The notes under the pieces are model-generated. The model was not told the DNA's origin, did not search any database, and worked only from the letters and a program-made list of their open reading frames with translations. 64,000 nucleotides of DNA. Origin: Acidobacteriota bacterium (lineage in GTDB: Bacteria; Acidobacteriota; Terriglobia; Bryobacterales; Bryobacteraceae). The translations under genes were made by a program, and so were the position numbers. Position 1 is the first letter of the stretch, and each line of letters begins with the position of its first letter. The stretch spans positions 1 through 64,000 of the forward strand of contig JAPKZB010000092.1 of NCBI GenBank assembly GCA_026393985.1, given 5' to 3'. Below are positions 27,626-35,461 of the stretch, piece by piece.

Positions 27626-28051
27626 ATGACTGGATCCACGGACACGCTTTTTGCGTCCAACCTTGCCAGCGTTGACGCCGCCGAAGCGATGGTTGTCGAA
27701 TCGGCCGCCGATCTGGGGTTCGATGAAGACGCGCGCATGGATCTCGGTCTAGCCATCCGCGAAGCGATGGTCAACGCCGTGGCCCACGGGAACGCCTACA
27801 GTCCGGATAAGCAGGTTCGTCTGCTCCTCGCCGTTGGCACCGGCTCGATTCGCGTCACTATCATTGATCAAGGCGAGGGCTTCGACCTGAATCAAGTCCC
27901 GGACCCGACCCGGGGCGAAAATCTCTTGCGCGAATCCGGGCGCGGTCTGTTGCTGATGCAGGCGTTTGTCGACGAATTCAGCGTCAAACGCAGCGCGCAG
28001 GGTGGCGCCGAAGTGGTTCTGGTTAAATATGCATCCGAAACAGGGAGATAA
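27626..28051 (+). CDS. RsbW-like anti-sigma factor / Ser kinase (HATPase_c_2)
   Basis: A 141-residue GHKL-type ATPase like RsbW/SpoIIAB, which bind a sigma factor and phosphorylate an RsbV-type antagonist. The N-box is AIREAMVNAVAHGN, the G1 motif IIDQGEGFD, and the G2 motif ESGRGLLLMQAFVD. TAGGAAGACACATG gives a clear ribosome binding site. The STAS gene follows after 6 bp, the usual kinase/antagonist pairing, although no sigma-B-like gene is nearby. The partner may therefore be a distant sigma factor or another STAS-regulated protein. Confidence 0.88.
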   Translation: MTGSTDTLFASNLASVDAAEAMVVESAADLGFDEDARMDLGLAIREAMVNAVAHGNAYSPDKQVRLLLAVGTGSIRVTIIDQGEGFDLNQVPDPTRGENLLRESGRGLLLMQAFVDEFSVKRSAQGGAEVVLVKYASETGR

Positions 28052-28057
28052 GTTACC

Positions 28058-28402
28058 GTGAGTGCTCGTTTCACTACCCGCCAGGTTGGCGATGTTACTG
28101 TCATCGATGCCGTGGGCCGCATTACGCTTGGCGAAGGCTCGGCGCTGCTCCGCGAAACTGTGAAAAATCTGGTGGTGGCGGGCAACCGAAAGCTCCTGAT
28201 GAATCTGGGGGATGTCAGCTACATCGACTCGTCCGGCGTGGGGGAACTCGTCTACAGCTACACCACCGTGACCAGCCAGCAGGGCCAGTTCAAGCTCCTC
28301 AACCTCAATAAACGGGTTGAAGATCTGCTGCAGCTTACCAAGCTGTACACCGTCTTTGAGGTGCATGATGACGAAACGCGGGCGGTGCGAAGTTTTTCCT
28401 GA
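28058..28402 (+). CDS. STAS-domain anti-sigma factor antagonist (RsbV/SpoIIAA-like)
   Basis: A 114-residue single STAS domain starting with GTG. The phosphorylatable serine lies in the conserved loop DVSYIDSSGVGELVYSY, about residues 52-60. The protein would relieve sigma inhibition when unphosphorylated by binding the RsbW-like kinase encoded 6 bp upstream. The response regulator gene starts 39 bp downstream and is probably co-transcribed. Confidence 0.9.
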   Translation: MSARFTTRQVGDVTVIDAVGRITLGEGSALLRETVKNLVVAGNRKLLMNLGDVSYIDSSGVGELVYSYTTVTSQQGQFKLLNLNKRVEDLLQLTKLYTVFEVHDDETRAVRSFS

Positions 28403-28441
28403 GAATTTTTTTCGCCCTCCCCTACTTCTTGCTGTAGGGTC

Positions 28442-29167
28442 ATGCCAGATCGAAAAATAGTCCGCGTCCTCATCGCTGAGCCCCAGCAGCTCCTGCGCGA
28501 AGCACTCGTAGCCCTCTGCGAGCGCAACCCCGATCTTGAGGTTACCGACCAATGCGCCGATGGCGCGGCTGCTCTCCGGCTGATGCTGCAAAAAGCCCCG
28601 GACGTGGCGCTGCTTGAGCTCGATCTGCCAGAGTTGCATACCCTTGAGCTTCTCAGCCAGGCCCGCGAGAGAAATTGCTCCACCCGGATCGTTCTGATGA
28701 CCTCGCGGAGCGATCGCAAAACCGTCATTGAAGCTCTGCGCTGCGGCGCGCACGGCATTGTGCTCAAGAGCGGCTCGGCGCGCCATCTGATGGACGCGCT
28801 ACAACAGGTTACCTCCGGCGGCGTCTACATCTCGCCGGCCGTCGAGGTGGACAAGATCTTTGCCGCCCACCGCAATCGCAAGGAAAACGAGGATCCGTTT
28901 GAAACGCTTTCGGCCCGCGAGCATCAGGTTTTCACCATGCTCGTCGAAGGCCACCGCGCCAAAGAGATCGCCGCCCGCCTTGCGGTCAGCCCCAAGACGA
29001 TCGATACCTATCGGGCCAGCATGATGCGCAAGCTCGACATCCACGACGTGGCCGGTCTGGTGAAATTTGCCATTACCCGCAAACTCACCAGTCTCCCGGG
29101 CAACGACTACAACGGGAACGGCACTTCCGCGGTGCCCCCCCAGGTGATGGCTAAAGCCGCCGGTTAG
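28442..29167 (+). CDS. NarL/FixJ-type response regulator with atypical receiver
   Basis: A 241-residue protein with a receiver domain (residues about 7-125), a LuxR-type HTH (LSAREHQVFTMLVEGHRAKEIAARLAVSPKTIDTYRASMMRKL, about 158-200) and a 25-residue tail. The phospho-acceptor Asp of the receiver is Glu59 (ALLELDLPE), and the acidic pair is E13-P14 instead of D-D. The conserved Thr87 and Lys109 are kept. The Mg2+/phosphate site is therefore impaired, and Glu may mimic the active state. It lies downstream of the RsbW/RsbV pair with no histidine kinase nearby. DNA binding is expected from the intact HTH. Confidence 0.85.
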   Translation: MPDRKIVRVLIAEPQQLLREALVALCERNPDLEVTDQCADGAAALRLMLQKAPDVALLELDLPELHTLELLSQARERNCSTRIVLMTSRSDRKTVIEALRCGAHGIVLKSGSARHLMDALQQVTSGGVYISPAVEVDKIFAAHRNRKENEDPFETLSAREHQVFTMLVEGHRAKEIAARLAVSPKTIDTYRASMMRKLDIHDVAGLVKFAITRKLTSLPGNDYNGNGTSAVPPQVMAKAAG

Positions 29168-33550: not shown

Positions 33551-33620
33551 TTGTGCCGCTGCCGCTCCTAGGCACTCCAGGCGGACAGATGCTACCATGA
33601 GAGGTTGGAAGAGTATTGTT

Positions 33621-34325
33621 GTGGATAAAGTAGAACGCGAACAATTGAAGCATGATCGCTTCGTCGAAGAGGTCACCCACTCGGTCGAGTACGCCGTCGG
33701 GCACAAAAAGCAGGTAACGCTTTATGGCGGCATTGCGGCGGCGGTGCTGGTGGTAGGTGCCGGCGCCTGGTACTTCCTGGGCAAACAGGCTGAGGCTCGC
33801 CAGGCCGACCTGCGGGAAGCCATCCTGATTCAGGATGCCGCCGTCGGTCCGGGCTCGAACCCCTACGTCAAGAGCTTTCCCACCCAGGCCGAGAAGGAAG
33901 CGGCGGCTCTCAAGTCCTTTAGCGCTCTGGCCGCCAAGCACTCGTCGAACGAAGTGGGGGCGATTGCCAAGTACTATCAGGGCGTGATCTACGCCGATCA
34001 GGGCAAGTTTGCCGAAGCCGAAACGAACTTCAAAGCGGCGGCCGACTCGGGCGAGAAGGATTACGCCTCGCTGGCGAAGTTGTCCCTGGCTCAGATGTAC
34101 TCCCGCCAGAACAAGAAGGACGAAGCCGAAAAGCTACTCCGCGCTTTGGTGTCCTCCCCGACCATCATGGTTTCCAAGGAACAGGCTGAAATCGAACTCG
34201 CCAAACTGATTGCGCCGACCAAACCGGATGAGGCCAAAAAGCTGCTCGAGCCGCTGCGCACCTCCGAACGCAGCACCGTCTCCCGTTGGGCCGTCACCGC
34301 CTACGGCGACGCCAAGCTGAAGTAG
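33621..34325 (+). CDS. Membrane-anchored TPR-like protein (YfgM/TPR_21 type)
   Basis: The product has a charged cytoplasmic N-terminus (VEREQLKHDRFVEEVTHSVEYAV), one membrane helix (LYGGIAAAVLVVGAGAWYFL) and tetratricopeptide-like repeats (IAKYYQGVIYADQGKFAEAETNF, LAKLSLAQMYSRQNKKDEAEKLL). This matches YfgM-like proteins that attend the secretion and outer-membrane machinery. GGAAGAG sits 7 nt before the GTG at 33621, giving 234 residues. An in-frame ATG at 33597 adds 8 residues but overlaps a TACCAT box. The dGTPase start overlaps its TAG. Confidence 0.78.
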   Translation: MDKVEREQLKHDRFVEEVTHSVEYAVGHKKQVTLYGGIAAAVLVVGAGAWYFLGKQAEARQADLREAILIQDAAVGPGSNPYVKSFPTQAEKEAAALKSFSALAAKHSSNEVGAIAKYYQGVIYADQGKFAEAETNFKAAADSGEKDYASLAKLSLAQMYSRQNKKDEAEKLLRALVSSPTIMVSKEQAEIELAKLIAPTKPDEAKKLLEPLRTSERSTVSRWAVTAYGDAKLK

Positions 34326-35461
34326 TGAACCCGGCCAACTCCGACAAACCGTTCGCTGCCCTCCGCCTTCGGCCGGAGATGAGCCGCGGGCGCCGTTACC
34401 CTGAGTTGGCCCACCCCTATCGCACGGAGTTCCAGCGCGACCGCGACCGCGTGATCCACGCCCGGGCCTTTCGCCGTCTTGAAAACAAGACGCAGGTCTT
34501 CCCGGCCGGGGTCTCTGATCACTTCCGCAACCGCCTCACGCACACGATGGAGGTGGCGCAGATAGCCCGCACTGTGGCGGCCACGCTTGGCGTGGATGAG
34601 GATCTCACCGAGACGCTGGCGCTGGTCCACGATATCGGCCACCCGCCGTTTGCCCACGCCGGCGAGGACGAACTCCGCCGCCAGATGGAGCGGTTCGGCG
34701 AAACGTTTGACCATAACCTGCATGGCCTCCGCATTGTGGAGAGCTTTGAGGCGCGCTACGCCCGTTTCCCGGGTTTGAATCTCACCTTCGAAGTCCGCGA
34801 AGGCATCGTGAAGCACTCCCGCGACCTGACCCCCGGGGAGTCGCCCGAACTCGACGCCTATCTGCCGGAGCAGCGTCCGCCGATTGAAGCGCAGATCATC
34901 GATCTGGCCGATGAGGTGGCTTACAATACCGCCGATCTGGATGACGCCTACTCGGCCGGCTTCTTCACCATCGACGAGGTTCGTGGCGCGGTCCCGGCCT
35001 TTTCCGACATCTGGGAGGCGGTCGAGATGCAGTTTCCTGGCGCTGAGGAGCGGGTGCAGTTCCTTGAAACGCTGCGGCAGGTGATCAACCTGCTGGTGTC
35101 GGGTCTGCTCGATGGCACGGCGAACGCGATACAAGCGGCCGGTGTCGCGACGGTGGAGGAGGTCCGCCGGCACCCGCGGCGGCTGGTGGGCCTAACGGAG
35201 TCGGCCGCCGCCACGGGTCGCGAGCTGAAGCGTTTTCTCCATCGCAGGGTCTACAACTCGGAAGAGTTGCTCAGGGAGCGCCACCGCTCGGTGCGCATGA
35301 TCGCCGAGCTGTTCGCCTACTATGAGGCAAACCCGGACCGTCTGCCATCCCTTTACCGGGATCAGGCCGAGGAGGGCCACTCGCATCGGGTGATCTGCTC
35401 CTACATCGCGGGCATGACGGACGGCTACTGCCAGCGAATTTATAACGAACTGCTGGCCTGA
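34325..35461 (+). CDS. dgt: Deoxyguanosinetriphosphate triphosphohydrolase-like protein (HD domain)
   Basis: A 378-residue HD-domain phosphohydrolase of the dGTPase type 2 family, which removes triphosphate from dNTPs. SRGRRYPELAHPYRTEFQRDRDR and HARAFRRLENKTQVF form the conserved N-terminal region. Metal ligands are His73 (RLTHTMEVAQ) and His102-Asp103 (LVHDIGHPPFAHAGE), with the last Asp in LADEVAYNTADLDDAY. The GTG at 34325 shares a base with the TAG of the upstream gene. It is preferred over ATG 34379 because the family usually has some 15-20 residues before S-R-G-R-R. Confidence 0.9.
   Translation: MNPANSDKPFAALRLRPEMSRGRRYPELAHPYRTEFQRDRDRVIHARAFRRLENKTQVFPAGVSDHFRNRLTHTMEVAQIARTVAATLGVDEDLTETLALVHDIGHPPFAHAGEDELRRQMERFGETFDHNLHGLRIVESFEARYARFPGLNLTFEVREGIVKHSRDLTPGESPELDAYLPEQRPPIEAQIIDLADEVAYNTADLDDAYSAGFFTIDEVRGAVPAFSDIWEAVEMQFPGAEERVQFLETLRQVINLLVSGLLDGTANAIQAAGVATVEEVRRHPRRLVGLTESAAATGRELKRFLHRRVYNSEELLRERHRSVRMIAELFAYYEANPDRLPSLYRDQAEEGHSHRVICSYIAGMTDGYCQRIYNELLA

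Follow-up and report, generated by a model that had tools for sequence, protein, structure and literature searches.

Regulators in which the receiver fold persists while residues of its pocket are missing are called ALRs or pseudo-receivers (PsR), and the definitions followed here are those of PMC12632262 and PMC4395418. Glu is the commonest substitute at the phospho-acceptor site, being found in 26% of ALRs, and it occupies this site in the OmpR-type regulator ChxR (PMC4395418). In some regulators a Glu substituted for the Asp imitates the phosphate, though often this change by itself does not suffice (PMC4395418). The second residue of the acidic pair is described as the one more often lost in PsRs, and the loss of the Gly eight residues after the acceptor (D+8) as typical of them (PMC12632262). 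As routes of control the same source names constitutive activity with regulated synthesis, the binding of proteins, and modification at Ser/Thr, and it calls the switching of bacterial PsRs an open question. Among the atypical orphan pseudo-response regulators of Streptomyces, BldM is reported there to act without phosphorylation and WhiI to work as a heterodimer with BldM (PMC12632262).

The partner switches RsbW-RsbV and SpoIIAB-SpoIIAA are built from a kinase and a STAS protein. Elsewhere a STAS protein can act by way of FlgM and sigma-28 (PMC8256260, PMC3174227). Receiver and RsbW-like parts are linked in TciR of Vogesella indigofera, described as a single protein in which the receiver is fused to the RsbW-like domain (PMC12826045), whereas at the locus considered here they lie in separate genes and the receiver is joined to a DNA-binding output. 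No combination of a PsR regulator with a partner switch was found among the matches listed from open-licence PubMed Central, as far as their titles and abstract openings go, which is weak evidence.

The window (the whole stretch of 64,000 nucleotides that was analysed) carries on its forward strand an open reading frame, 28442-29167, that starts with ATG and encodes a NarL/FixJ-type regulator of 241 amino acids with a putative PsR domain, as judged from the frame itself, Pfam, an alignment to NarL and a predicted model. The receiver-like domain spans residues 9-120 (28466-28801, forward strand; Pfam Response_reg, 9.2e-19), and the predicted model shows the (beta-alpha)5 pattern for it. It is followed on the same chain by a LuxR/GerE helix-turn-helix (HTH), residues 155-210 (28904-29071, forward strand; Pfam GerE, 3.1e-16), which is thus intact, as the original prediction had it. 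Both domains exceed the Pfam cut-offs, as expected of the NarL/FixJ family, but the phosphorylatable Asp and the complete acidic pocket of that family are absent. The model has a mean pLDDT of 83.6; its pTM of 0.58 leaves the arrangement of the domains unsure. Its best solved matches in Foldseek include LiaR, VraR, RcsB and DesR; these and NarL rank high among the matches of the regulator by sequence or by structure, although NarL and VraR keep the phospho-Asp in the alignments. The Foldseek match confirms the fold; no mechanism was gained from the structure. BldM and WhiI are of the NarL type, and the window regulator resembles them in being an atypical regulator, although no heterodimer partner was identified for it. 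It differs from ChxR and other ALRs in its NarL/FixJ output domain, in its RsbW/STAS neighbours and in the graded loss of the pocket at one syntenic locus.

Residues 13, 14, 59, 61, 87 and 109, read out by script, are E, P, E, D, T and K. The receiver residues claimed in the original prediction, Glu59 at the acceptor site with Thr87 and Lys109 present, are therefore in place. Its further claim that E13-P14 (codons 28478-28483, forward strand) replaces the acidic pair holds for Pro14, which occupies the second acidic (metal-ligand) position in the alignments, but not for E13, which is still acidic, so that the second residue alone is lost. Glu59 is encoded by GAG at 28616-28618 on the forward strand. 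A phmmer comparison with NarL (1a04) places residues 8-200 of the regulator on residues 7-199 of NarL, with Glu59 on Asp59, the phospho-Asp of LLDLNMPG; alignment with the sister loci gives the same position. Strand 3 of the predicted model comprises residues 55-59, and residue 59 is its last, where the acceptor sits. The alternative acceptor Asp61, which had been named as a test of the prediction, is ruled out by the alignment to NarL and the predicted strand. It is the D+2 position, where the sister loci that retain Asp59 likewise have Asp, and it is variable across the relatives described below. With Pro14 and Glu59 present and the phospho-Asp absent, the sequence is that of a PsR/ALR. The regulator has 22 matches in its own genome, itself included (E up to 1e-3), and the second best is only 34% identical; hence no close paralogue is seen.

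Relatives were collected by similarity searches of 101 family genomes (Acidobacteriota) and of titled genome contigs, giving 91 rows, which were reduced to 80 by removal of nine duplicates and two short rows. Of the 71 regulator places in the family genomes, all were read but three (G009, G077 and the copy on contig 100 of G039), and a tree of 74 rows leaves out six near-copies and three paralogues. After removal of the pocket columns, the 80 rows split into two clades at 100/100, one of 57 rows that includes the window protein and a sister clade of 23 rows linked to histidine kinases (HK). A kinase gene adjoins the regulator in 22 of the 23 sister rows, the remaining one (L114), which has no kinase match, being counted with its clade; HisKA_3 and HATPase_c were found in the adjacent kinases of all nine loci scanned. 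In the clade of 57, 45 regulators lie beside a STAS gene, and 44 of these also have RsbW within 3 kb; the other (L079), whose RsbW is more than 5 kb upstream, is counted as linked by STAS alone. The remaining 12 are orphans with neither STAS nor RsbW nearby, including L068, whose nearby histidine kinase adjoins another regulator. The set of 57 was assembled by similarity and not at random; three regulators discussed below (L182, L184 and L196) stand outside them.

An intact pocket, defined as acidic-acidic-Asp-Ser/Thr-Lys, is found in only 18 of the 57 rows, as against all 23 of the HK-linked clade, and is broken in the other 39. It is intact in 13 of the 45 STAS-linked rows and in 5 of the 12 orphans. 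At 80% non-redundancy the counts are 16/43 and 17/17 (Fisher p 4e-6, a guide only because the rows are related and not independent). On the 74-row tree, from which the pocket columns were removed, there are at least seven changes at position 59 and at least ten in the status of the pocket. Position 59 is Asp in 44 of the 57 rows and Glu in nine, the remainder being Ser, Ala or Gln.

The pocket reads E-P-E-T-K in all eight distinct loci of the window clade, so Glu59 is conserved among the closest orthologues. The six nearest sister loci (68-73% identity, three of the six being nearly identical) read E-P-D-S-K. Since Pro14 is common to the window clade and this Asp59 sister group, the change from Asp59 to Glu is likely to be the later step. 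Orthologues with Asp at this position were to have counted against the prediction; taken literally, the six sister loci are such orthologues, but they share Pro14 and their pocket is also incomplete. The loss has gone furthest in the L182 regulator (L182:3324-3914), situated in the same place after STAS, where one of the five pocket residues is left, namely Asp59; in the alignment the acidic pair has become Ser-Ala, positions 87 and 109 are Ala and Glu, and a deletion follows 59, yet the HTH can be aligned over its whole length in spite of the eroded receiver. At the level of the predicted protein, L182 shows how far the receiver can change at this locus while the output domain persists. The locus thus offers a natural erosion series at one syntenic place, from DDDSK through EPDSK and EPETK to a single remaining residue, with the HK-linked sister clade as its control. 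Two regulator copies about 4 kb apart, with the broken pockets DPETK and HPDTP, lie at L059:4992-5660 and L059:9352-10053.

The proposal that Glu59 mimics the phosphorylated state is possible for the window clade, where Glu is present in 8/8 loci. It cannot be the mechanism of the family, in other lineages of which the position is occupied by Asp, Ser, Ala or Gln. The placing of the Glu59 rows in a single clade is rejected (p-AU 8.6e-5, for a group named after the data had been seen), and a role for Glu59 as a family-wide activating residue was discarded together with it, position 59 being variable.

With Glu59 fixed in 8/8 loci, the direct metal ligand removed by Pro14 and the pocket broken in 39 of 57 rows, phosphotransfer to Asp is very unlikely, in line with the original suggestion that the output is not controlled in this way. 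Some members of the clade may still be phosphorylated, because 18 of the 57 have an intact pocket and 44 have Asp59. It might be argued that residual phosphorylation persists more widely, the regulator or its Asp59 relatives being phosphorylated by acetyl phosphate or by a kinase encoded far away, in the window protein at Asp61 or Glu59. Thr87, Lys109 and the acidic E13 are indeed retained, Asp59 predominates in the clade, and changes at DD, T or K are stated not always to abolish the reactions (PMC12632262). However, the alignment and predicted strand 3 give 59 and not 61 as the acceptor, position 61 is Asp in only 20 of the 57 rows, and Pro14 takes away the metal ligand, so we regard this as very improbable. 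The window protein is probably a NarL/FixJ-type PsR regulator that is independent of Asp phosphorylation and whose output is set mainly by its amount. The retention of Thr87 and Lys109 speaks against this reading.

The regulator follows, by the 39 bp of 28403-28441, a pair of genes on the same strand, as the original prediction stated and as ORF coordinates and Pfam bear out. The first encodes an RsbW-type serine kinase (27626-28051, forward strand; HATPase_c_2, 7.8e-28), the sole strong match to its family in the genome. The second encodes a STAS-domain protein resembling RsbV/SpoIIAA (28058-28402, forward strand; Pfam STAS, 2.3e-14, and ant_ant_sig above cut-off) with the motif DSSG, which we take to be the Ser substrate motif. 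An RsbW-type kinase and a STAS protein of this kind are the components of a classical partner switch. Phosphatases of the PP2C type are present in the genome as three strong and one weak SpoIIE-type matches, none of them on the contig of the regulator. A genome-wide search for HATPase_c (E up to 1e-3) gives 45 matches, and RsbW is the only one of them inside the 64,000 nucleotides, the next on the contig being at 202586, which upholds the claim that no histidine kinase is nearby. The neighbour of the kinase and STAS genes is here a DNA-binding regulator and not a sigma factor, unlike in the known switches, and no SigB/F/G sigma factor was recognised in the genome (97.9% complete), where the SigBFG model yields 103.9-131.1 bits, well below its cut-off of 234.35. 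Because the assembly is 97.9% complete, a sigma factor could be missing from it. Three proteins with sigma region 3 are present, two RpoD-like and one FliA-like.

Two further STAS genes are present in the same genome. One of them (61% identical to that of the window) is divergent from an FHA-GAF-SpoIIE phosphatase gene at L158:108-2241, a pair that could possibly provide input to the same RsbW. The other stands third in a row with a response-regulator-like gene and a histidine kinase at L161:4856-7466.

This neighbourhood invites the reading that the regulator takes the place of the sigma factor, being bound by RsbW or by the unphosphorylated STAS protein and so retained or set free. The 45 STAS-linked rows of the clade, 44 of them with RsbW close by, the single strong RsbW match and the lack of a recognised SigB/F/G sigma factor in the genome are in its favour, and if the link were true, a partner switch would act on a DNA-binding regulator instead of a sigma factor. 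The association is looser when viewed from the kinase. RsbW is present in 96 of the 101 family genomes, and in only 34 of these does a matched regulator of the same orientation start at most 3 kb downstream. Among 40 of the remaining 62 RsbW loci, chosen for having no adjacent match, STAS is followed by a regulator in three (L182, L184 and L196), and in 37 none is detectable by tblastn at E up to 1e-3; two loci in which a regulator/kinase pair lies before RsbW and not after STAS (L174 and L203) are counted as without. In total, adjacency was thus found in 37 of the 96 genomes (34 matched and three among the 40 others). Outside the family, the 27 STAS loci listed all have RsbW, and none has a regulator in flanks of about 1.5 kb. 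At many places, then, RsbW and STAS occur together with no regulator next to them. A rapidly built tree of the two proteins, split 41/37 between loci with and without the regulator (counting the second L059 copy, which adjoins STAS), requires a minimum of 14 changes between its presence and absence, five of which are forced by well-supported branches. Upon comparison of the RsbW and STAS columns, only position 18 of RsbW differs with the presence of the regulator by more than 0.5 total variation (TV 0.53), so that the predicted kinase and STAS proteins look nearly alike with or without it. In addition, 12 of the 57 clade members are orphans, and RsbW could instead act on FliA or some other partner. 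Control by the partner-switch pair, as originally suggested, is not borne out by the 37/96 adjacency and the one weakly differing position; as an account of the output it is unlikely, and a direct link between regulator and switch is possible.

The genes further downstream tell of the history of the locus. A TPR protein gene (33597-34325, forward strand), matched in the relatives, is followed in them, as in the window, by a dGTP triphosphohydrolase (dGTPase) gene (34286-35461, forward strand; the true start may lie further in). Where it was matched, the TPR gene is within 1.2 kb of the start of the regulator in 18 of 22 relatives, with the dGTPase gene after it, and in 12 of the 37 loci without a regulator the two genes stand directly after STAS. 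In the window they are set apart from the regulator by intervening genes spanning about 4.4 kb. This suggests an old gene order RsbW-STAS-(regulator)-TPR-dGTPase; at the RsbW/STAS locus the regulator may be present or absent. On the preferred reading, that of a PsR regulator controlled mainly through its amount, its position beside RsbW/STAS would reflect co-inheritance at an old locus, perhaps with co-expression.

The clade of the window protein bears a signature of its own. Gly at D+8 is present in 1/57 of its rows, compared with 23/23 of the HK-linked clade, and D91-R92 in 53/57 compared with 0/23. Residue 110, directly after the conserved Lys (K+1), is Ser or Thr in 54/57 compared with Asp in 23/23; in the window protein it is Ser, encoded at 28769-28771 on the forward strand. 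Ser or Thr is found there in 44 of the 45 STAS-linked rows and in 10 of the 12 orphans; of the three exceptions, L067, L068 and L069, two are orphans. Residue 110 is thus a sharp candidate for a replacement switch: RsbW or another serine/threonine kinase would phosphorylate Ser110 in place of phosphotransfer to Asp. Residue 110 aligns with residue 106 of VraR (chain 7ve6_A), and residue 59 with residue 55. The acceptor of VraR is given the number 55, and its Thr106 is reported as one of four sites phosphorylated by Stk1 in vitro, with a lowering of DNA binding (PMC4601284); the PsR GlnR is also listed as Ser/Thr phosphorylated (PMC12632262). However, VraR has Thr at K+1 alongside its phospho-Asp, and because it has both, Ser/Thr at this position does not imply that control through Asp is lost. 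The difference between linked and orphan rows is also small. To our knowledge, no RsbW-type kinase acts on a receiver, which counts further against control through Ser110, and the chance that it operates seems slight. Slighter still would be that of a complete exchange of switches, from Asp59 phosphorylated by a histidine kinase to Ser/Thr110 phosphorylated by the neighbouring RsbW, with STAS and PP2C setting the availability of the kinase. If this exchange were true, the regulator itself would be a substrate of the partner-switch system.

Residues D91, R92, K93, L99 and R100 are more conserved than pocket positions 13, 14, 59, 87 and 109 in 43 non-redundant rows. Among 21 pairs from seven window-clade loci, dN/dS ranges from 0.016 to 0.114 in the receiver (18 values) and from 0 to 0.060 in the HTH, residues 152-215 (19 values); for three pairs the ratio is missing in at least one domain and dS is often above 1, because of saturation. 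That the regulator is a decaying relic without function might be read from the repeated erosion of the pocket and the patchy presence of the gene. The ratios far below 1 in both domains wherever computable, the open frames of 213-273 amino acids in all 57 rows and the conserved HTH and helix 4 render this highly improbable. By its sequence the protein is an ordinary PsR regulator, kept by purifying selection.

The course of events that we prefer would then begin with loss of the second metal-binding acid to Pro, followed by the change of Asp59 to Glu, by which the receiver would have become a pseudo-receiver. The regulator would take no phosphoryl group from a histidine kinase. Its receiver would stay as a folded module for dimerisation or interaction, with helix 4 (D91, R92, K93, L99, R100) conserved, and DNA would be bound without Asp phosphorylation. 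The output would be governed mainly by the quantity of regulator made. The protein appears to be of a known kind, PsR/ALR, and its interest would lie chiefly in the natural erosion series and in the Ser/Thr at K+1.

A possible site for such control of quantity precedes the start codon. The dyad CCCTAC-N8-GTAGGG (28420-28439), recognised by comparison of the intergenic sequences and by a pattern search of the genome, has its end 2 bp upstream of the ATG. Seven of the eight window-clade loci carry it exactly and L035 with one change (by eye, eight intergenic sequences), whereas the beginning of the 39-bp gap differs among them. The own genome has a single exact copy, that before the regulator gene. 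In 11 genomes of the genus, five exact sites are found in four genomes, and four of the five precede the regulator gene; a reversed control pattern gives four sites in three genomes. The number of sites is thus chance-like, the control being nearly equal, and their placement alone is notable. An operator of a regulon was considered and set aside, as the genome has a single exact copy and no regulon was seen. An RNA hairpin was likewise set aside: its two arms do pair, yet the folding around the dyad does not stand out from that of shuffled sequences (z -1.66 to +0.43, six loci). The dyad is nevertheless a candidate site for autoregulation or for control of translation, and in the preferred reading it would serve as an autoregulatory site or a translational hairpin. 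A sigma-70-like promoter was looked for before the regulator and none was found. In L041, L044, L045 and L048, a GAGAATT box and a similar block downstream of it are seen by eye between STAS and the regulator; the box may be a shared promoter element.
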